Virus record (IMG/VR): IMGVR_UViG_3300037563_000004 | Span: 1-20,297 of that record | Length of the DNA stretch: 20,297 nt | Source: a virus | Reading direction: 5' to 3' (one strand) | Shown: piece by piece, positions 6,660 to 20,187 of the stretch | Numbering within the stretch: position 1 is the first letter of the stretch | How the letters are laid out: the number at the start of each line of letters is the position of its first letter | Made by a program: the position numbers and the translations under genes | Notes under the pieces: generated by a model | Told to the model about the DNA's origin: nothing | Databases searched by the model: none | Seen by the model: the letters and a program-made list of their open reading frames with translations, nothing else

Positions 6660-7448
6660 CTAAGTATTTACTTGACTTAAAGCATTTGAACTAACGTCCC
6701 CAGCCCCTGGAACCTGAGGAAAAGTAGGAGTATTAGGGTATAAAGTAGATGGAATAACATTCTGAGCTACTTGAGAAGCATTAGGGGCTGTAGACTGAAT
6801 AACTCCTCCTGATGTTTGATCAGTAGTTTGAGGTAAAGCACTAGATGCTGTTTGAATTTGTACACTACCCGCAATAATCTCTTCTAGGGTAATGGTGGCT
6901 TTTAAGGCATGCAAAGTTTTATTATCATCAGGAGCACTCATATCCATGATGAGCATATTACTATAGGTATCTAATCTAGTAGTAATAGTAAATAAAGTTT
7001 TAGTAATAGCTAAATTCTTAAGTATCTGCCAAGCAGATACGCTCTTAGTTGCCGCTCCTACCCATACTCCTGCTGTAAATGAAGCCATAGCATCACTCAT
7101 ACCAATCTCTAGTATAAGTCTAGCGGGTTCCATGTAAGCATGATCTGATATATTAGCTCCAGTAAGTACAGGGTGCTGAGTCTTATGAACTCTTCTATTA
7201 TGTACAATTCTCATTACTGCATCAAATACATAATTAACAGCGGCAGAAGCCGGTTGGCCTGTAGTAGTACTAGATTTAGCAGGAACTGTAAGAATAGTTA
7301 AAGCTGGTTTAGAATACTGTAGAGGCGTCCATGGCCCACTAGAGGAAATACTTACATCATTCTGATCTTGTGAAGATCCAAATAGTATTTGCTCTGAAGT
7401 AGACGTAGCGATAGTTAATAGAGAAGGTAGTATTATTCCACTTCCCAT
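6660..7448 (-). CDS. Dit-like tail/baseplate protein
   Basis: This 262-residue protein carries the core of the Dit-like N-terminal family: AAVNYVFDAVMRIVHNRRVHKTQHPVLTGANISDHAYMEPARLILEIGMSDA (about 68-120, key residues HPV, ISDHAY, P-R-LILEIG). The centre continues WQILKNLAI and LLIMDMSAPDDNKTLHALKATITLEEI, typical of proteins that attach the hub to the last tube ring. The first 65 residues and last 60 are low-complexity, Ser/Thr/Gln/Pro-rich. The ATG shares a base with the tape-measure stop (TAATG), so the two are coupled. Stop TAG overlaps the plug SD. Confidence 0.75.
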   Translation of the reverse strand: MGSGIILPSLLTIATSTSEQILFGSSQDQNDVSISSSGPWTPLQYSKPALTILTVPAKSSTTTGQPASAAVNYVFDAVMRIVHNRRVHKTQHPVLTGANISDHAYMEPARLILEIGMSDAMASFTAGVWVGAATKSVSAWQILKNLAITKTLFTITTRLDTYSNMLIMDMSAPDDNKTLHALKATITLEEIIAGSVQIQTASSALPQTTDQTSGGVIQSTAPNASQVAQNVIPSTLYPNTPTFPQVPGAGDVSSNALSQVNT

Positions 7449-9115
7449 TACTTGAACGCCCCCGACGCAGTTTGAGCCATTACAGTACGATTCTGTTTAC
7501 GTAAATACTCCACCATAGAATCACTAATAATATCTTTCATTTTATCTATAGGAGTTCCATTGGGGACATTTACAGTAAGTTGATTTATGTTTACAGAACC
7601 TGTTCCTTTACCTGAAGGTTCATCAAATAAAGGTTCATATCTCTTCATTCCAGTAGCATAGTCTGCTTCTGACCCGGTATAGTATCCGCCTTGTTTAAGA
7701 GAATGAGCAAATGAATCTGAGTCACCAGCATCCATAATACCTTTAGAGGTATATCTACTGCTAGTAATTTGATTACTATAATCTTTTACAAAATCATCTA
7801 AGGTGTTGTACTTCTTATAGTCAGTACCATTTCCACCAGGAACATTTATCCCTGCTGCGTTATTATCCTTATTGAAGACAGAACTAGAAAAACCACCGGT
7901 TTCTTCAGCCCACTGAGCATAAATAAGTTTAGCAGGAAGACCTGTAATCTCAGAGGCTCTAATGGCCAAGGATCTCATTTTGTCTATTGATGATCCAGTT
8001 TTAGGTTTACTAGTTGAACTATAGGCGGTACCATAATTAGATTCTTCAGAGTCCACCATCCAAGGTAAATAAGCTTTTCCGGATTCACTATTAGCTTCTT
8101 CTTGAGATTGATTAGCCCACTGAGACCACTGAGACGATTTCTTTCTCATCTCATCAGCTTCTTTATGCTTTCCTTGTTTATCTAATAATGCTGCTCTTCC
8201 TGAGAAATAACTACTGGTTACATTAGATATTCCTGTAACTATTTCACTACCTGAAGCTGAAAGACCATGATATATAGTATGAAGAACTTTATCAGTTCCC
8301 TCTACTACAGCAGCCATGCCATTAGCTGTATGAACTAAAGCAGTAGCAAAATTCTCAAACTTAAAAGTAGTACTCTCTATAGAAGAGTCTCCAGATAATT
8401 GACTTACCACATTAGTAAAACCTAACGCTACAGCTTCAGCATCCTTACCTACTCCTGTAAGTACAGTTCTCATATCACCCCATACAGGAAGTAGATATGT
8501 AGATACTTTATCTGCCCACATAGGTATATCATCAGAAAAAGTATGATTTAACTTACGAAGGTCAGTAAGTACGTCACCAGTACCTAATCCTAACTTTTCA
8601 TATAATTTAGCCACAGAACCCATAGCAAGAAAACCAAGTTCTGTACCAAACTGCTTTACTTCTATTATAAGTTTACGAATACCGACCATATCAGGATCAA
8701 AAGTAGTTCCTAGGGAATTACCCAGCTTTACGTTTCTCTCATATAGGTCCTGAAACTCTTTATTAAGTTCTCCTGTACCGTCTGTAACAATATCACTAAG
8801 AGAAACCCCTAGGGTATCTAGTGCTCCTTGCATAGCACGAAAAGAGTTCTTAGTCATGAGCATTCTGGTGCCCATAAGATTAAACTGCCGATCAGCCATA
8901 GCTGTCTTATCGGCTAAGGTTATAATACTAGTACCGAAAGAGGCAAATGCTGTTACAATAGCTACGTCTAGTTTAGCAAAGCTCTTAACAGAAAATTCAG
9001 CAAACCTATCTACTGAAGTGGTAGCGTCTTTAAGAGTAGTATTAAACTTTACGAATGAGGCTGTGTCTTGAGTCGCCCCCAGCTTTACCAAATAGGATTC
9101 TAAAACGTTATCCAT
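7448..9115 (-). CDS. Tape measure protein with embedded glucosaminidase-like domain
   Basis: This 555-residue protein follows the frameshifted chaperone pair, the standard place of the tape measure. The N-terminus (about 1-120) is Ala/Thr/Leu-rich and helical (SYLVKLGATQDTASFVKFNTTL, then ADRQFNLMGTRMLM), typical of the family. Residues about 378-497 look like a FlgJ/glucosaminidase-type muralytic domain: LPAKLIYAQWAEETGGFSSS with candidate catalytic Glu404/405, NNAAGINVPGG in the place of the usual NNLFGIK, YNTLDDFVKDYSNQI, and YATGMKRYEPLF at the end. The C-terminus (510-555) is a helical tail that probably binds the tail tip. At about 0.15 nm per residue the tail would be about 80 nm (inference). 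The ATG overlaps the chaperone stop region by 8 bases. Confidence 0.85.
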   Translation of the reverse strand: MDNVLESYLVKLGATQDTASFVKFNTTLKDATTSVDRFAEFSVKSFAKLDVAIVTAFASFGTSIITLADKTAMADRQFNLMGTRMLMTKNSFRAMQGALDTLGVSLSDIVTDGTGELNKEFQDLYERNVKLGNSLGTTFDPDMVGIRKLIIEVKQFGTELGFLAMGSVAKLYEKLGLGTGDVLTDLRKLNHTFSDDIPMWADKVSTYLLPVWGDMRTVLTGVGKDAEAVALGFTNVVSQLSGDSSIESTTFKFENFATALVHTANGMAAVVEGTDKVLHTIYHGLSASGSEIVTGISNVTSSYFSGRAALLDKQGKHKEADEMRKKSSQWSQWANQSQEEANSESGKAYLPWMVDSEESNYGTAYSSTSKPKTGSSIDKMRSLAIRASEITGLPAKLIYAQWAEETGGFSSSVFNKDNNAAGINVPGGNGTDYKKYNTLDDFVKDYSNQITSSRYTSKGIMDAGDSDSFAHSLKQGGYYTGSEADYATGMKRYEPLFDEPSGKGTGSVNINQLTVNVPNGTPIDKMKDIISDSMVEYLRKQNRTVMAQTASGAFK

Positions 9116-10310: not shown

Positions 10311-11735
10311 CTATACTTGTACTAACACTTCAATCGTAACAAAGTGCACAGCGCCAGCCTCAATTAAAGCCACATAAATAGGAGGAGCTTGACGAGCAGC
10401 TATTTGAGCTTGAGATATAGTAGAATACTTAGGAGACTGTACTAAATAACCAGCAGGTAAAGATTGTCCCTTTTTAAGGTTAAGAATAGTCTGACCTTGC
10501 CAAATTCCAGCAGCAATAAAGCCAACATTAACCGCAGTATCAAGAGCAGACTCTACAGCTTGAATTAAGAGTTGTTGACCAGAATCAGTCTGTGGAACAC
10601 TAGGCATACTAGTTAATAGATTGAGAATAGCATATTGAATATTCGAAGCCAGAATGTCTAAATTGAGTACTTGGTCGAAGAAGACATTCACAGCCATCAT
10701 GGTACCTTGTTCCAGAATATTGAATGAATTAGCATAATTCAGAAACAGATTACCATTAGGACCTTGAGCAGGAGTAACCCCCTCAATATTTCCAATTTGG
10801 GAAGTAGTAAGACCAGGTTCAGTAACAACCGCGACCAGAGGAACTCCACCGCTAAATTTCTCAGTAAAGTATGAGTTAGCTAATTGGCTATTGGAAGCCA
10901 TAGCTTGACCCATGATAGCAGCTACAAAGTAGATCTGGTTTGGAACAAGACCACTCTGGGTAGTAGCATAATGCATCCATGTACGAGAAGCACTAGTAGC
11001 AAAAATAGTAAGAAGAACATTATCACTAGAGCCATTAAGAACAGCAACATCACCAGTGGTTCCAAAATATGTAGTTCCGATTTGGCTCTGTACGAATGCT
11101 GCAATGGCAATATGATCAGCATCAGTAGCTCCACAAACCATGCAGCAATACCACTCAGGATTAGCTGTACGGCAAGCCATTACAGCTTGTACTGGTGTTT
11201 CTCCGATAGCAGAAACATTAACAGTAAGACCACTACCTATAGAAGGACTAACAGCAACAGTAGCCAACCCAGTAGCTATTGCGTAACCAGTACCTTGCTG
11301 GTATATAGTAATAGCTGAAGGTATACCGCCTGATTCAGCTGAAATTCTACCAATACCATAGCTAGCTCCGCCTTGGGTTATATTGAATAAATCCCCAACA
11401 GCCCACCCAGTACCAGCAACATCTATAGTCATAGTTTGAATAGCTGTAGAGTCTTGACTACCTATATAAACTGCTTGAGGAGGAGGATTCTGGCTAAAGT
11501 ACATTTGAGCCGCAATATATGCTGGATCAGATGTAGTAAAGCCATCTGTTAACATGGCTGAGGAGTAAGTAGCTTGTAGATACTTACGGATACGAGGATT
11601 AATACCGTAACTGGGAATTACTCCACTGTCATCGATAATCAATCCAATATTAAAGGAAGGGGCAGCTACCTGTGGAGAACTAGTTACTACAGTAACATCA
11701 GCAATTATCGAAAGTGGTAATGGATTTGCAGGCAT
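10311..11735 (-). CDS. Tail sheath protein (DUF3383-like)
   Basis: This 474-residue protein matches the DUF3383 sheath group: N-terminal PLSIIADVTVVTSSPQVAAP and FNIGLIIDD, then RIRKYLQATYSSAMLTDGF and AAQMYFSQNPPPQAVYIG (about 74-92), a core near AWMHYATT-like RTWMHYATTQ, and a C-terminal domain with GYLVQSPKYSTISQAQIAAR and HFVTIEVLVQV, the strand exchanged between rings in contractile sheaths. Residues about 98-178 appear to be an inserted beta domain with two GTGW/YAVG..-type motifs (VAGTGWAVGDLFNITQGG and QQGTGYAIATGLATV), probably exposed on the sheath surface. SD AAGGAG is 5 nt before the ATG. A strong hairpin follows the stop. Confidence 0.88.
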   Translation of the reverse strand: MPANPLPLSIIADVTVVTSSPQVAAPSFNIGLIIDDSGVIPSYGINPRIRKYLQATYSSAMLTDGFTTSDPAYIAAQMYFSQNPPPQAVYIGSQDSTAIQTMTIDVAGTGWAVGDLFNITQGGASYGIGRISAESGGIPSAITIYQQGTGYAIATGLATVAVSPSIGSGLTVNVSAIGETPVQAVMACRTANPEWYCCMVCGATDADHIAIAAFVQSQIGTTYFGTTGDVAVLNGSSDNVLLTIFATSASRTWMHYATTQSGLVPNQIYFVAAIMGQAMASNSQLANSYFTEKFSGGVPLVAVVTEPGLTTSQIGNIEGVTPAQGPNGNLFLNYANSFNILEQGTMMAVNVFFDQVLNLDILASNIQYAILNLLTSMPSVPQTDSGQQLLIQAVESALDTAVNVGFIAAGIWQGQTILNLKKGQSLPAGYLVQSPKYSTISQAQIAARQAPPIYVALIEAGAVHFVTIEVLVQV

Positions 11736-11744
11736 AGTAACTCC

Positions 11745-12620
11745 TTACACCTCAACTGTAAAAGATTCTAGCTCTCCCGAGCTATCATAAACGGTAACTG
11801 GAACAGTCAGAACTGTACCAACAGTATAGGTCTCCGTCACTTGTTCGTTGAACTCAGCAACCAAATCAATACGCTCCCACCACTCTCCCTGAAAATTCTC
11901 AGGAACACGACGGGGTTCTTCAATAGAAGGATTGATGTATAAATTGCTTATAGCTAAAAGATCAGCAAATTGTTGGACGGTAATAAGAGCTGAGCGAACT
12001 GCTCTAGCTCTGTCTAAACCATTAGGTCCGTAGAATGTCCAGTAAATTCTACCAGTTCTTGTAAAAACATCAGTAGTGGTATAAACTATTCCTACTGAAG
12101 TACCTACAGCATCTCTTAATTTTGAGTACTCAGTGTCTACTGGTTCATACCGTAAAGTTACTGTGTCTTCAGCAATAGGCGGCCCTGGTTGACCTTGTAT
12201 TTGCCAACCTATACGAACTTTTTCATAAGCTTTAAGGTCTATTACTGAAGCAGTAACAGGGCCAGAAGCGGTAGCTGGATTACTTAACATTACAGTATTT
12301 CCTGAAATACCAGTAATGAAAGTAAAGTTAGGTATTCCGACTCCAGCAATCAATAAACCAGGATATAGATTAGTGGTACTGTTTACGGTAGAAATTTCTA
12401 ATCCATTAGTAATAGTTAACTGAGTAGTCCAAGCAACTGGTGGATAGGCGGTAAACCATGATACTAGAGATGGAGGAAGTACATTTAGATTTTGAGATGG
12501 AATAGGATAAGTAAGAATCCCAAGCATCTGAGCAGTGGCTAACTGAAAAGCACTTTCTATCTGCTGGTCAGTTAGAGCAGTAGAGGTGAGTTGAGTTCCG
12601 TCAGGATAGGTTATGTTCAT
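11745..12620 (-). CDS. Neck / tail terminator protein with inserted beta domain
   Basis: This 291-residue protein lies between the tail-completion proteins and the sheath. Segments VRIGWQIQGQPGPPIAEDTVTLRYEPVDTEYSKLRD (about 135-170) and IYWTFYGPNGLDRARAVRSAL resemble the phage neck terminator family, which caps the tube and joins head. The C-terminal part (PRRVPENFQGEWWERIDLVAEFNEQV) fits the same family. Residues about 65-127 interrupt that core: LTITNGLEIS, YPGLLIAGVGIPNFTFITGI, NTVMLSNPATASG, a self-contained beta-rich block also seen in the cement and DUF4054 proteins. The ATG overlaps the preceding stop (ATGA). Confidence 0.75.
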   Translation of the reverse strand: MNITYPDGTQLTSTALTDQQIESAFQLATAQMLGILTYPIPSQNLNVLPPSLVSWFTAYPPVAWTTQLTITNGLEISTVNSTTNLYPGLLIAGVGIPNFTFITGISGNTVMLSNPATASGPVTASVIDLKAYEKVRIGWQIQGQPGPPIAEDTVTLRYEPVDTEYSKLRDAVGTSVGIVYTTTDVFTRTGRIYWTFYGPNGLDRARAVRSALITVQQFADLLAISNLYINPSIEEPRRVPENFQGEWWERIDLVAEFNEQVTETYTVGTVLTVPVTVYDSSGELESFTVEV

Positions 12621-13045
12621 CTGCCGCTCATCCTAACTCCTATAGCTCTCCAATATCCAAAATCTCGCCAAGGAGCTATAGAGATAACTCTATAGAGTTG
12701 ACCTCTCCACTGAATCTGATCACTTACATGTTGCTCTGAGTGGCCATACTTGTTCTTATTATCACAGTCAAACCCATTATCACCATACGATTGTTGACCA
12801 TAGCCACCATCTAATTGAGTTTCATATATTCTTTCATAGGAGTGGAAGGTCATTGCTCCGCTGATCCTATCGCCTTCAGGAATCATCTGAAGATCTTGAT
12901 CAGAAGAAACTGTAATTATTCCATATCCACAGACATTTTCACTCCAAGTTTTCCAGCCACCTAACTCAAACCAACCTCTAGAGCGAAGTATAGTGAAGGC
13001 TTCAGCTAGATCAGAGTCCATTACAACCTCTGATAAGCTTATCAT
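12617..13045 (-). CDS. Neck / head-tail connector protein
   Basis: This 142-residue protein sits between the gp10-like protein and the tail terminator. It contains ISGAMTFHSYERIYETQ (about 62-78), then HVSDQIQWRGQLYRVISIAPWRDFGYWRAIGVRMSGR (C-terminal), a pattern I associate with small head-completion/stopper proteins (a W-R-G-Y-R-V strand pair followed by D-x-G-Y-W). The N-terminus is a helix (SDLAEAFTILRSRGWFELGGW). AGGGGGACAC precedes the ATG and the start overlaps the previous stop (ATGA). I am unsure whether it is the stopper or an adaptor. Confidence 0.65.
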   Translation of the reverse strand: MISLSEVVMDSDLAEAFTILRSRGWFELGGWKTWSENVCGYGIITVSSDQDLQMIPEGDRISGAMTFHSYERIYETQLDGGYGQQSYGDNGFDCDNKNKYGHSEQHVSDQIQWRGQLYRVISIAPWRDFGYWRAIGVRMSGR

Positions 13046-13641
13046 GTGTCCCCCTTCACTACATACGTTATACTTCCTCTTAGTACTCCTGTATCTATAA
13101 GAGGTCTATTGGAGCCTTTAGCTTTAATAGTAGCAGGTTTATTAGGTGGCCAGTTATTCCGTGAATCAGTAAACCAAGCTTTTGACGCATTAGCCCCAGC
13201 CATTCCCGCTTTAGCTAGTCTGCTTAATACTTCACCAGGTTTACCGTCTAAAGAAGCTTGAGTAGCTTTAGAGAGTTGAAAAGCTATAGACTCTTTATTA
13301 GGAGAAGCCATTATAGCAGGCTCAATAACAGGTCTAGCAGGTATATGATTTACTGGAGAACCTTTAGAGTGGATATACATTAACTGAGCATTATTAACAG
13401 AAGATAATATAGACTTACTGATTCTACTAATTTTCTTAGCTCTAATTTTACCTGGTTTTCCAGACTTATTAAGTTTAGACTGATCGAGAATTTTCTTTGC
13501 TGTTTCAGCTAACTGACGTTTTCTATCTAATGAGGATGAGGCTGGAATCCCGACATAAACAGCCTGCTTACCTATGCTCTTGATTCTGTCTAGTACTTTC
13601 TTGCTGTCGCTTTTCCTTATTATTGTTACTGTCGGTTTCAT
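13042..13641 (-). CDS. Tail completion / gp10-like (virion morphogenesis) protein
   Basis: This 199-residue basic protein has the C-terminal signature of HK97 gp10/Mu gpG-type proteins: WFTDSRNNWPPNKPATIKAKGSNRPLIDTGVLRGSITYVV (about 155-195; W-P-x-N-x-x-T-I-x-x-K and PLIDTG.L..SI). The middle contains IPARPVIEPAI, another family landmark, and the N-terminal third is Lys-rich and helical (DSKKVLDRIKSIGKQAVYVGIP). Such proteins act at the head-tail joint. The start has SD GAGGA 5 nt upstream. The gene overlaps a short upstream ORF by 74 bases and the next gene by 4 bases (ATGA). Confidence 0.8.
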   Translation of the reverse strand: MKPTVTIIRKSDSKKVLDRIKSIGKQAVYVGIPASSSLDRKRQLAETAKKILDQSKLNKSGKPGKIRAKKISRISKSILSSVNNAQLMYIHSKGSPVNHIPARPVIEPAIMASPNKESIAFQLSKATQASLDGKPGEVLSRLAKAGMAGANASKAWFTDSRNNWPPNKPATIKAKGSNRPLIDTGVLRGSITYVVKGDT

Positions 13642-13729
13642 TAATTTCCTCGTGCTTTCTCAGCCAAGCTAAGATAGTACGATCATTCCAACTACCATCA
13701 GGCTCTTCTTGATCGAATCTAGTTCGCAT
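13568..13729 (-). CDS. Small overlapping ORF (53 codons), unrecognised
   Basis: This ORF starts 4 bases after the DUF4054 stop (TAATTCTATG), with no SD, so it would depend on reinitiation by ribosomes leaving the upstream gene. It reads MRTRFDQEEPDGSWNDRTIL, then AWLRKHEEINET, a compact and plausible helical protein, then an Asn/Gln/Arg-rich tail that lies inside the next gene in another frame. Without it 92 bases would be untranslated between two tightly packed genes. I do not recognise a family. The first 30 residues look most real; the tail could be incidental. Confidence 0.5.
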   Translation of the reverse strand: MRTRFDQEEPDGSWNDRTILAWLRKHEEINETDSNNNKEKRQQESTRQNQEHR

Positions 13730-13733
13730 AGAA

Positions 13734-14471
13734 TTATATGACCCAGACAGGACCCATATTTGTAGAACGGGCTAAAGTAATAAACTGAGTCCCGTAAGTA
13801 GTTTCTTGCCATGTTCCCCAAGCTTCATAACCATCGATAAATCTAATGCCAGCACTTACTCCACCAGCAGACTTAGCTGCTATAAGACCACGCTCTAACC
13901 CAGATGAAGCAATCTGAGCAGCATTAACAAAAGGGCCAGCCTCTGATCGCATATATAAAGTGCAGTAGTGAGCAATAAATAGAGACATAGCCAACCACCA
14001 CATCTCATTATACCTTTGGTGCATTACTGAAGCTCTAGCTAGGAACACATAAGCTAAAATAACCATTAAAGGCATTGTTGGTTTCTCATATACTGTAAGA
14101 ACAGTATCACTTACTATAGCATTATTACTTATAGTAATAGTATCAGTTCCTAAGGCAATAATTACTGAGTCTTTAGGAATACTATTTAAGTTTACTACTA
14201 GTTGTCCTACTGCTAAGCCAGGAAAATTCTGGTCAGTAAACCCAGTAATTATATTAGAGCCAGCAGTAATAGATAACCCAGTAAAGGAAGTAGGACACCC
14301 GAAGAATTTAGGATACATTCCTAAGAAGTCTGTGGCTGTAAAGCAAGGGTTACCAGGAAAAACGGCTCCTGATGCGTTACCAAAGAAACTTACAGTAAGA
14401 GCCCCGAGGTCTACTCCGCCAGTTCCGTAGACCATTGCATAGAAGCCGTTTATGTCAGGAAAACCCCACAT
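13734..14471 (-). CDS. DUF4054 head-tail adaptor with inserted beta domain
   Basis: This 245-residue protein looks like a head-tail adaptor of the DUF4054 group. The conserved parts are FTATDFLGMYPKFFG (about 44-58), the helical PLMVILAYVFLARASVMHQR (134-153) with WWLAMSLFIAHYCTLYM, and the C-terminal GGVSAGIRF... WGTWQETTYGTQFITLARSTNMGPV. Family members are shorter because residues about 65-128 are an extra beta-rich block (LSITAGSNIITGF, PGLAVGQLVVNLNSIPKDS, DTITISNNAIV) of the kind found in the neck and cement proteins here. The adaptor ring sits under the portal. The first 40 residues are Gly/aromatic-rich and unassigned. The start has a moderate SD (AGG), 10 nt upstream. Confidence 0.75.
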   Translation of the reverse strand: MWGFPDINGFYAMVYGTGGVDLGALTVSFFGNASGAVFPGNPCFTATDFLGMYPKFFGCPTSFTGLSITAGSNIITGFTDQNFPGLAVGQLVVNLNSIPKDSVIIALGTDTITISNNAIVSDTVLTVYEKPTMPLMVILAYVFLARASVMHQRYNEMWWLAMSLFIAHYCTLYMRSEAGPFVNAAQIASSGLERGLIAAKSAGGVSAGIRFIDGYEAWGTWQETTYGTQFITLARSTNMGPVWVI

Positions 14472-14477
14472 GATAAC

Positions 14478-14888
14478 CTACTTTTCTTCAGTCTCTTCAA
14501 TTTCCCCTGGAGTATCTTCATCTTCCTCTACTTCACCCTCAGCAAGAATAGGCTCAGCATCTAAATCAATAGGTACAAGCTTCTTACCATCACTAATAGA
14601 AACCGGCTTACCTTTATTATCCACAATCACAGTACCTGAAGGAGGAACATTAGCAGGAACCTCAACTTCTGGTTCAAAGGGATTCTTCTTCATTAAGGCG
14701 TCAGCTAAAGGAAGTGATCTACTAGACTTAAGAATAGTTATATACCCAGACTGTACTAATGGCTTGAAGCCAGGATGATCTACAACATCATCAGGTACTC
14801 TCTTCTTATGACCAGCATCAATATGAACCAATCCACCATCAGTAGAAGCTGAATGAAGGTTAACGTGCTTATTTGCTTGGATATTCAT
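14478..14888 (-). CDS. Small head-associated hypothetical protein with acidic tail
   Basis: This 136-residue protein has a basic/neutral N-terminal half (VHIDAGHKKRVPDDVVDHPGF, then LVQSGYITILKSS, about 20-57), a proline-rich linker, a short beta-like segment (SGTVIVDNKGKPVSISDG) and a strongly acidic C-terminus (last 20 residues mostly Glu/Asp/Thr). The DxG..K..VPDDV...PGF pattern recurs in small proteins next to capsid genes, but I cannot name a family or function. The SD AAGGAG precedes the ATG by 6 nt. It follows the hairpin element after the capsid gene and is 6 bases upstream of DUF4054. Confidence 0.75.
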   Translation of the reverse strand: MNIQANKHVNLHSASTDGGLVHIDAGHKKRVPDDVVDHPGFKPLVQSGYITILKSSRSLPLADALMKKNPFEPEVEVPANVPPSGTVIVDNKGKPVSISDGKKLVPIDLDAEPILAEGEVEEDEDTPGEIEETEEK

Positions 14889-14902
14889 GTCAATCTCCTT
14901 GT

Positions 14903-14960
14903 GACACCAGGTAATATATGCAAACCCTGGATGAATACATACTCATCCAGGGTTTGCATA
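14903..14960 (-). terminator. Hairpin element after major capsid gene (copy 2 of duplicated element)
   Basis: Arms at 14917-14934 and 14943-14960 form a perfect 18-bp stem with an 8-base loop, starting 11 bases after the capsid stop in the transcript. No run of U follows the stem (TATTACC), so classical rho-independent termination is unlikely to be complete, which fits the essential genes downstream. The arm at 14943-14960 is identical over 18 bases to 10272-10289 after the sheath gene, and the sequence downstream of both stems is also alike (GATACCAAGGT versus GACACCAGGT on the plus strand). Confidence 0.7.
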
Positions 14961-14971
14961 ATTGTACTAAG

Positions 14972-15982
14972 TTAGCAACCGTAGTAAATTTGAACCGTCT
15001 GGGGACGGTTAATTTTCACCACACCAATGTTAGCAAGGTAGAGAAATTCGAAACAACCGCTGACAATTGACGGAGGAGCACCAAACCGCGTAATTTCCTG
15101 AGGAATACCAAGACTGAGGCAATCCTTGTCATATTTGTAAGCTATGATTTCGTCAGTAGCAGGAGAACCCGGGCCCTGACCTTCAAGCCAATAAGGCAGA
15201 GGATAGAATTCAGGTTCAACACCAAAAGCAGAACCAAAATAGTTCTTCTTGATGTATTCCTGCATAGAAGCATAGCCACTAGGACCACCAATAACAGCCA
15301 TTGGTTGAGTCAGAATAGCATACGGCGCAGGAGGAATCAGGAAGCGGTCTGGGAGAGCTCCAGGGGCATTACCACTAGCATTCCAGTTGGTAATAGCCAT
15401 GAAGTTAAAGTCATTTAAGATAGCCGTAGCTGTCTTAGTAGACCAAGTCGTAGTTGAACCAGTACCTGTCGCAGGAAGAGCGGTCTGGGTCAGAGACGGG
15501 TTATTAACCAGTCCCTGATTTCCTGCAAATCCAGCATAAGCACGACGGTCCAATGTCTTACTGTAGTCAACACGAACTCCCTTATCAAGGAGGTCCTGAG
15601 GACTACGGCCTACCTGAGCCATCCGGAGAGATTCTACAATCGGAATCCGAATACGCACTTGGTAGGGGAACACGGGCCATGTGTCCTGGTTAACGTTATA
15701 TTCGATCACTCTAGAGTCATTCGTCTGTGAACCTGCGCTATCATCCTGAGGTCCACGGAAGTCGACGTTATGAGCAATATGGTTCATGACCCAACCACCA
15801 CCTCGATCAATTGGAAGATCGCGGAGGTAGGTGTAATTCTCCAATGGGAGACGTACGGTTGGATCGAGTTTGGATAATTCGGCAATCAGGAAGGTCTGAC
15901 CCGTAGCAGCCGCAGCAGCGTCGGAAAGGACTTTCCCACTTCGCAGAGCATTAAGACTCTGTTGATATTCCCTGGGATTCAT
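14972..15982 (-). CDS. Major capsid protein (DUF2184-type, HK97 fold)
   Basis: This 336-residue protein lies right after the cement gene and has the pattern of the DUF2184 capsid group: an N-terminal helix (REYQQSLNALRSGKVLSDAA), DPTVRLPLENYTYLRDLPID (about 40-59), GWVMNHIAHNVDFRG, a spine-helix region (IPIVESLRMAQVGRSPQDLLDKG, about 113-135), LDRRAYAGFAGNQGLVNNP, and a P-domain ending FEFLYLANIGVVKINRPQTVQIYYG. The HK97-type shell would be built from this protein on the scaffold made by the upstream gene. Its GC content is visibly above that of the tail genes, perhaps codon choice for high expression. SD AAAGGA is 6 nt from the ATG. A strong hairpin follows the stop. Confidence 0.87.
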   Translation of the reverse strand: MNPREYQQSLNALRSGKVLSDAAAAATGQTFLIAELSKLDPTVRLPLENYTYLRDLPIDRGGGWVMNHIAHNVDFRGPQDDSAGSQTNDSRVIEYNVNQDTWPVFPYQVRIRIPIVESLRMAQVGRSPQDLLDKGVRVDYSKTLDRRAYAGFAGNQGLVNNPSLTQTALPATGTGSTTTWSTKTATAILNDFNFMAITNWNASGNAPGALPDRFLIPPAPYAILTQPMAVIGGPSGYASMQEYIKKNYFGSAFGVEPEFYPLPYWLEGQGPGSPATDEIIAYKYDKDCLSLGIPQEITRFGAPPSIVSGCFEFLYLANIGVVKINRPQTVQIYYGC

Positions 15983-15999
15983 TTTTTATCCTTTCAGCC

Positions 16000-16755
16000 T
16001 TAGGCGATTGTACGAGCAAGAATAGTAACTTGAGCAGTATCATCTACTTCCAAGAAACCGGTCTTCCATTTGAGATTGGTAAGAAGAACAGTATGAGAAA
16101 AAACCACATTCCCAGATACAGTTCCTAAAGAAGCCTGAGACAATGTAACAGTAGAAACCCCAACTGCAGCAACTGTGGTATTAGCAGCGAGATTAGTACC
16201 AGTAACAGACATACCTACTTCAATACCGGTCATTGCTCCAGGAGTAAGAGTGACTGAAGCACCAGTAGTAGCACCAGTAGTTGTAATAGGATTAGGGTCA
16301 GTAGCAGCCTCAAGACCACCAACAACACCAGCAGGAATAGCTGAATCAGAAGCTACACGCATCCAAACTGATCCACCAGCGGTAGGAGTGCCATTATAGC
16401 AGGTAACATTGATAGTTCCCTGTACAAGGCCATCCATGGTAGCACCAGGAAGGAATACTCCACCAGCAGTGAGAACATCATTAGACCCGGCTGAATTATA
16501 AGCAGGATTGATATTCACGTTACTAGGAGCAATACCCATTGCTAATGCTGCTGTTACAGTACCTCCACCAGCGATAAATGTCTTAACGCTAGAGTAGGTG
16601 TTATTCGTGTTCAGAACGAATGTCTCGCCGAACGCTACAGGAAACGTATCAGTCGGATTAACCTGACGCGCTGTACGAAGGGAATAGCCCTCATTACTGA
16701 TACTCCCAACAAATCCTAGGTAAAGTCCTTTAACAGGAATTACAGTTGCTGGCAT
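16000..16755 (-). CDS. Capsid cement / decoration protein (gp24-like) with inserted beta domain
   Basis: This 251-residue protein precedes the capsid gene and resembles the structural cement family: IPVKGLYLGFVGSISNEGYS, then RTARQVNPTDTFPVAFGETFVL (30-49), AMGIAPSNVN, and the characteristic GVFLPGATMDGLVQGTINV... GGSVWMRV (99-134). The C-terminus (NLKWKTGFLEVDDTAQVTIL, 227-246) returns to the family pattern. Residues about 158-222 form an extra block (ASVTLTPGAMTGIEVGMSVTG, NTTVAAVGVSTVTLSQASLG) of the type also present in the DUF4054 and neck proteins, probably on the outer face of the head. The ATG follows the protease/scaffold stop by 2 bases; the SD (AGGG) lies inside that gene's end. 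Confidence 0.78.
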   Translation of the reverse strand: MPATVIPVKGLYLGFVGSISNEGYSLRTARQVNPTDTFPVAFGETFVLNTNNTYSSVKTFIAGGGTVTAALAMGIAPSNVNINPAYNSAGSNDVLTAGGVFLPGATMDGLVQGTINVTCYNGTPTAGGSVWMRVASDSAIPAGVVGGLEAATDPNPITTTGATTGASVTLTPGAMTGIEVGMSVTGTNLAANTTVAAVGVSTVTLSQASLGTVSGNVVFSHTVLLTNLKWKTGFLEVDDTAQVTILARTIA

Positions 16756-19576: not shown

Positions 19577-19601
19577 TCATTACTCATTACCCATTACTCA
19601 T
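19577..19601 (-). repeat. Tandem 7-base repeat at endonuclease stop
   Basis: Three copies of the 7-mer tcattac (third with one change, ccattac) plus tcat occupy 19577-19601. On the minus strand each gives GTAATGA, so stop and start codons alternate (TAATGAGTAATGAG). The endonuclease stop lies in it. It may reflect slippage or the scar of the endonuclease insertion. Confidence 0.75.
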
Positions 19602-20187
19602 TTTGGAAATATCTATAGTTTCTTATATGGACTATAGCTGACTTAGATACCCTTAATTCCTCAACCCATTCCCTTACTAATTTAACCTTATCTGTTCTTA
19701 TAGCTCTTACTTGTTCTGGAGTTACCTTACGTAAACTATTAGATATATTCTTACAGTGATCCTGTGTAAATGGTTTTCCGGGTCCTGTAGAAATACCTTT
19801 ATTCCAGGGTATATTACCCTTAAGGGCCTCAGATATTTTAGGATTTTTACGGCCTTTTAAAGCGGATGAAATAGCTTTCCTAGTTTCTTCATTACCATTC
19901 CAACCAGTTGTTATAGTATGACCCATAGTTAAGTTATAACCACCATCACCTAAAGTATCGAATAATTCTATATAAAAGTCTTCTTTTTCTTTAAGTTCTT
20001 CTTCATTATCAGCCTGATCTACTTGAACTATCTTAAAATTTTCTATCCCATGCTTACGTAGAGCATTACCTATATAAGTCTTAGATCTTAAATGACCTCT
20101 AAATCTATTTCTTATAGAACCTACAGTAACTCCTACATATCCTCTTCCAGTGACTTTATAAAAAGCATAATAAACTATGCCAAACAT
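19594..20187 (-). CDS. GIY-YIG homing endonuclease with NUMOD3 motifs
   Basis: This 197-residue protein begins MFGIVYYAFYKVTGRGYVG, holding both halves of the GIY-YIG signature (VYY near 5-7 and YVG at 17-19). Catalytic-type residues are in place: Arg27/Arg29 in SIRNRFRGH and Glu69 in KEDFYIELF. Residues about 100-131 hold NUMOD3-like DNA-binding repeats (EETRKAISSALKGRKNPKIS, then ALKGNIPWNKG). The C-terminus (PEQVRAIRTDKVKLVREWVE, then LRVSKSAIVHIRNYRYF) looks like a helix-turn-helix. It is a free-standing mobile gene between head genes, AT-richer than its neighbours. SD GGAGGA is 5 nt before the ATG, so it is expected to be translated. Its target is unknown, but such enzymes usually cut the empty allele of their own site. 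Confidence 0.92.
   Translation of the reverse strand: MFGIVYYAFYKVTGRGYVGVTVGSIRNRFRGHLRSKTYIGNALRKHGIENFKIVQVDQADNEEELKEKEDFYIELFDTLGDGGYNLTMGHTITTGWNGNEETRKAISSALKGRKNPKISEALKGNIPWNKGISTGPGKPFTQDHCKNISNSLRKVTPEQVRAIRTDKVKLVREWVEELRVSKSAIVHIRNYRYFQNE

Follow-up and report, generated by a model that had tools for sequence, protein, structure and literature searches.

How do three unrelated proteins of a single virion come to share one small beta-rich block, and what does this block do for the particle? The question is raised by the viral contig IMGVR_UViG_3300037563_000004 (uncultured; 20,297 bases, all of which were analysed and are hereafter called "the window"), for which a first-pass annotation had reported that the cement protein, the DUF4054 adaptor and the neck terminator each contain a block of about 60 residues laid out on the same plan.

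Head and Neck Genes of the Window

The window corresponds to the minus-strand structural module of a contractile-tailed phage, in which a head maturation protease (DUF2213) is followed by the cement protein, the major capsid protein, a small ORF and the DUF4054 adaptor, then by a tail completion/neck protein, a collar-like protein, the neck terminator, the tail sheath (DUF3383) and the tube, and finally by the baseplate and fibre genes. The first carrier of the block is the cement/decoration protein (251 aa; 16000..16755, minus strand; phrog_563, E 2e-6), whose model matches, in a fold search, the Pam3 capsid/cement protein 8hdt_G (E 2.1e-4, prob 1.00) and the E217 decorating protein gp24 (8frs_f; E 1.8e-3, prob 0.93). 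The second is the DUF4054 head-to-tail adaptor (245 aa; 13734..14471, minus strand; Pfam DUF4054, E 3.9e-10), the family profile of which matches E217 gp27 (8fvh_N; E 3.6e-5), while the third is the neck/tail terminator (291 aa; 11745..12620, minus strand; Pfam Phage_tail_terminator_9, E 6e-12), whose model is matched by Foldseek to the Pam3 terminator 8hdr_G (E 2.8e-6) and to the E217 gateway protein gp29 (8fvh_M; E 2.2e-5). With the adaptor, terminator and cement cores all matched, the phage is E217/Pam3-like in its head and neck. In E217, the counterparts of these proteins are a dodecamer (adaptor), a hexamer (terminator or gateway) and surface trimers at the threefold positions (cement) (PMC10329688).

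Elsewhere in the window, a GIY-YIG endonuclease with a NUMOD3 motif (19594-20187, minus strand), likely a homing endonuclease, adjoins the head genes, and a tape-measure-like protein (7448-9115, minus strand) bears a glucosaminidase domain at its C-terminus (Pfam E 5e-13). Neither the neck protein nor the capsid protein had relatives in two scans of bacterial and archaeal genomes. Among the related loci, L063 and L064 belong to the same contig (IMGVR_UViG_3300036781_000230, 79 kb), which has two cement genes, one at each end; the pair may stem from two phages, from a duplication or from a join made during assembly.

One Domain Inserted in Three Carriers

The block, hereafter the type A module, spans approximately residues 154-220 of the cement protein (16096..16296, minus strand; delimited from relatives with an empty site and from the model), residues 64-131 of the adaptor (14079..14282, minus strand; domain profile iE 2.4e-20) and residues 64-128 of the terminator (12237..12431, minus strand; iE 3.1e-20). 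The blocks were thus present where they had been annotated, with boundaries right to within a few residues. Inside the window, the signal that unites them is modest: the window neck is reached at 4e-4 by the cement profile and at 0.002 by the adaptor profile, and the neck profile reaches the window adaptor at 0.007 and the window cement at 0.07. Pairwise identities are low as well (about 19-27% to the neck copy), and a composition rich in S, T, G and V could imitate similarity, as would be expected if the blocks were native family parts or convergent, i.e., beta-rich segments with similar turns and separate origins.

The homology of the three blocks is nonetheless secure, because the blocks of relatives add to this signal. 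Across some 90 related loci (4,064 ORFs), an iterated profile gathered 52 copies, all in the cement, adaptor and terminator families, while reversed decoy sequences gave zero matches below 0.01. Moreover, the block profile of each carrier retrieves the blocks of others: the neck profile finds 12 adaptors (best 3.8e-11) and 3 cements (best 1.9e-8), the cement profile finds adaptors (1.6e-8) and necks (1.5e-5), and the adaptor profile finds necks (3.1e-7). Against these cross-family matches, the agreement in strand order between two models (see below) and the existence of homologues with empty sites, separate origins for the blocks are extremely improbable, and we regard the blocks of about 65 residues as homologous copies of one domain.

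These copies are insertions, since relatives with an empty site exist for all three proteins, which also rules out that the block is a native part of any of the families. Profiles made from insert-free relatives match the window protein on either side of each block in all three carriers, so that, as had been proposed, the family core is interrupted and then resumes. For the cement protein, six relatives in the first loci display a clean junction (…GLEAxADG-xN…) exactly at the position of the window's block, with sharp junctions in the block-free proteins of L002, L004, L006, L008 and L009, and further ones in the larger locus set. In the adaptor, the block separates a DFLxxYPKF helix segment from the one that follows; it is missing from L035, L046, L050 and L053, E217 gp27 is too short for it (155 aa), and the alignments of DUF4054 matches in cultured phages cover only the core or its near flank. 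Necks without the block are found in L003, L004, L005 and L006, and also in distant relatives. In L026, the neck terminator is spread over two overlapping ORFs (873-1388 and 1174-1731), probably owing to a frameshift in the contig.

Fold of the Type A Module

In the AlphaFold model of the neck terminator, the block forms six strands (64-70, 76-79, 90-93, 96-106, 109-112 and 120-127; pLDDT about 91-98), as it does in the cement model (157-164, 167-170, 183-186, 193-198, 202-205 and 213-220), and the two models, which were computed from separate alignments, agree in strand order instead of displaying different folds. The type A module is therefore predicted to be an independently folding, six-stranded beta-barrel of about 65 residues, the fold of the adaptor copy being assigned through its sequence homology to the modelled copies.

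The structures that resemble the block are barrels (8bke, the barrel domains of E1 and F-ATPase, and 8eci). In the fold search, in which the aligned columns were taken as the blocks from alignment length because residue ranges are not reported, the cement model superposes on the Arthrobacter phage Bridgette decoration protein (8eci_1) at 1.7 Å over 69 columns, with 23% identity and a probability of 1.00, and the neck model aligns with the KP34gp57 depolymerase over 80 columns at 4.1 Å, with 22% identity. Within the PDB, the domain profile likewise scores best against this 8eci chain, albeit weakly (E 0.0017, with a high bias of 22.9). Regarding KP34, its record has no domain-profile match at E<=0.01 and pairwise hhalign gives a probability of 5%, so that sequence kinship is not significant and we retain this barrel as a fold resemblance only. 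An Ig-like domain was rejected for lack of both Pfam and fold support: no Ig fold was recognised among the best 50 structural matches, and Pfam, at E<=1, gave no Ig family for any of 48 copies. No CBM family was returned by Pfam for the same 48 copies, and the type A domain has no Pfam family. Sequence searches of the PDB with single proteins gave nothing useful for the cement or the adaptor, while searches of phage records gave no matches with one adaptor block (from L076) or with the 8eci segment, the latter possibly masked by low-complexity filtering.

Occurrence beyond the Head and Neck

The same sequence domain occurs in virion structural proteins of cyanophages (PHROGs 5838, 6002, 6005 and 10467; best E 8e-8), with five copies in large structural proteins of cyanophage S-H9-1 (best 1.4e-14), and in tail fibres of Klebsiella phages (1.1e-7 for the ZCKP8 tail fibre); a likeness at the fold level extends to a cyanophage fibre and a short tail fibre. 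Across 20 viral contigs, mostly fragments, of up to 104 kb, the profile finds the same three proteins, along with a protein of 1,300-1,560 aa that is encoded by three related contigs and has a single copy, in most cases a weak one. One of these large proteins (1,306 aa, from a relative) resembles a tail-fibre/receptor-binding protein and has a weak, sub-threshold CBM_5_12 match.

History of the Copies

Three copies within 5 kb of the window, on one strand, could be taken for the outcome of recent copying within the operon, and the first-pass annotation had accordingly considered a domain that is readily copied there. This part did not hold, because the copies cluster by carrier protein and not by genome. 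In a tree of 52 copies, the cements group together (97/95), as do 20 of the 21 necks (95/92), with the adaptors needing three changes. Furthermore, sharing a genome does not make two copies more similar to each other (within vs. between genomes, 27% vs. 27% for adaptor-cement, 26% vs. 26% for adaptor-neck and 30% vs. 28% for cement-neck), and the carrier genes are separated by others devoid of the module. We therefore rejected recent operon copying, which we deem highly unlikely, while an ancient duplication between carriers is possible, the deep forks of the domain tree being poorly settled. The neck copy of L076 has a long branch outside the neck clade and may represent a second insertion at the same site. 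Of the five cement copies, the window's own (16096-16296, minus strand) has diverged most (end branch 1.35), despite a capsid protein 91% identical to that of L007.

When mapped on a tree of the capsid protein, which was midpoint-rooted and resolves the branching within the close clade poorly, presence of the block changes once in the adaptor, twice in the neck and four times in the cement. Taking insert-free lineages as ancestral, and given that E217 gp27 has no room for the block, this tree suggests that the module was gained in the adaptor, then in the neck, and then patchily in the cement, where repeated loss or transfer occurred. The four cement changes are not four gains, since the cement copies make up a single clade. 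The neck block was lost at least once, as L003-L006 add a loss; L004, which owing to deduplication is without adaptor and neck states in the capsid tree, has the adaptor block and no neck block.

Other Modules at the Insertion Sites

A second and unrelated module, type B ("GGTGY"), occupies residues ~98-180 of the window's tail sheath (11196..11444, minus strand; profile iE 1.4e-36) and is found in the sheaths of nearly all these phages. In L041 (1859-2647) and L047 (5235-5975), the adaptor slot holds type B in place of type A, the L041 adaptor segment matching the L033 sheath at 2.1e-16, while the cement of L043 (2962-3822) has a third, unrelated insert of ~75-85 aa at the site of the type A module. 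As type B fills the adaptor site and a third insert the cement site, we favour permissive slots over one domain with one fixed role. The adaptor of L032 (730-1710) combines the type A module with a second, different insert further downstream. A broader proposal, which we advance only tentatively and consider rather unlikely as it stands, is that cement, adaptor, terminator and sheath offer standard slots into which type A, type B and other small beta modules are plugged and exchanged. If true, such slot exchange would be a general means of virion-surface diversification on the head and neck, beyond receptor-binding proteins alone.

Putative Function

Our leading explanation, to which we would give about an even chance, is that type A modules are a putative exchangeable decoration of the exterior that confers weak, avidity-based multivalent adhesion. 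Inserted in permissive loops of the cement, the adaptor ring and the terminator ring, barrels of about 65 residues would point away from the particle, since the DNA channel inside the rings has no room for twelve or six barrels of 7 kDa, and since the cement binds the outer shell. They would form a cap and a neck collar of small barrels, putatively adhering in a weak and multivalent manner to the host envelope or to extracellular polysaccharide, which would help to keep the particle near cells; the rapid divergence of the block relative to the core would then reflect changing surface contacts. Indeed, the block is less conserved than the core in 78 of 78 neck pairs, 74 of 78 adaptor pairs and 10 of 10 cement pairs (162/166 in total), a pattern that is also compatible with relaxed constraint. 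The conserved positions are fold residues only (Gly24, the G-I/V-P-x-G-T turn and alternating hydrophobics), and more than half of the block consists of Ser, Thr, Asn, Gly and Ala, with few charges. For a shared role in binding glycans or mucus, a candidate put forward in the first-pass annotation, no conserved sugar-binding site is visible, because aromatics amount to 3-5% and include neither a conserved Trp nor a conserved residue at the surface; a conserved charged patch is likewise lacking. Adhesion is favoured because the block diverges fast and occurs in tail fibres and cyanophage structural proteins, while conservation limited to fold positions and the fact that relatives dispense with the block count against this reading.

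Alternatively, the barrels might brace their neighbours (cement to cement, or adaptor to terminator or sheath) and so stabilise the head and neck, with no ligand involved. This is a possibility that we rate as somewhat unlikely, even though a capsid decoration protein (8eci) is the nearest match of known structure, the conserved positions are purely structural with rare aromatics, and two of the carriers belong to the neck, where the adaptor ring lies above and the terminator ring below the collar protein. A load-bearing interface would not be expected to diverge faster than the core, nor to be absent from close relatives (capsid protein >80% identical) in which the carrier is otherwise intact, and an unrelated module occupies the adaptor slot of L041 and L047. 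Finally, patchy presence, fast divergence, the lack of conserved functional residues and one or more neck losses (L003-L006) would suit a tolerated passenger, i.e., a mobile coding module that landed in exposed loops and persists without function. This appears improbable to us, given that the module is kept in the adaptor of every close relative, that its fold persists throughout a deep tree at identities of 20-40%, and that it is nearly confined to exposed virion proteins in the 20 contigs, whereas random insertion is expected to scatter.

Comparison with Known Systems

Among known systems, the Bridgette decoration protein (8eci) has the same fold as the cement copy and is likewise a component of the capsid exterior, where it sits as a dimer around the penton (PMC13033339). 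It is, however, a separate, free-standing protein of a siphophage, whereas the domain described here is inserted in cement, adaptor and terminator. In the KP34gp57 depolymerase, a small six-stranded barrel is also inserted in another fold, where it lines the polysaccharide groove (PMC10653864), but it is larger (101 residues), belongs to an enzyme groove and has no significant sequence match to type A. The repeated domain of cyanophages is the same sequence domain, but it lies inside very long, fibre-like proteins without a named family, unlike the single copies found here in compact head-neck proteins. Ig-like domains occur on phage structural proteins, such as T4 Hoc, and figure in the bacteriophage-adherence-to-mucus model. 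They too are optional beta domains on exterior virion proteins, but they differ in fold, the neighbours of type A being barrels and Pfam giving no Ig match.

While phage domain shuffling (PMC10684548) and virion decoration (PMC6669499) are already known, we found, in the part of the literature covered, no report of one module inserted in the cement, adaptor and terminator of one phage, and the head-neck distribution of the type A domain would be a new variation on such decoration. It ties inserts in core connector proteins to an unnamed, widespread module seen in tail fibres, in cyanophage structural proteins and, by fold, in a free-standing capsid decoration protein, and it marks sites in the cement, adaptor and terminator that tolerate an insert of 65 residues. 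Moreover, within a single phage architecture, the relatives naturally have or lack the same domain at each of three sites, and comparisons among them can serve to test what decoration of the head and neck is worth.

The closest functional precedent, by analogy, is that of the 936 lactococcal phages, in which carbohydrate-binding modules are carried by the neck passage structure, the major tail protein and Dit, two of these modules having been shown to bind host cells (PMC6669499). As in our phages, the modules are optional, sit on several virion proteins and differ in combination between relatives. In contrast, those of the 936 phages are CBM domains with tested binding, mostly occupy one decorated site per phage and are not borne by the capsid cement, the adaptor or the terminator, which are the proteins that carry the type A module here.
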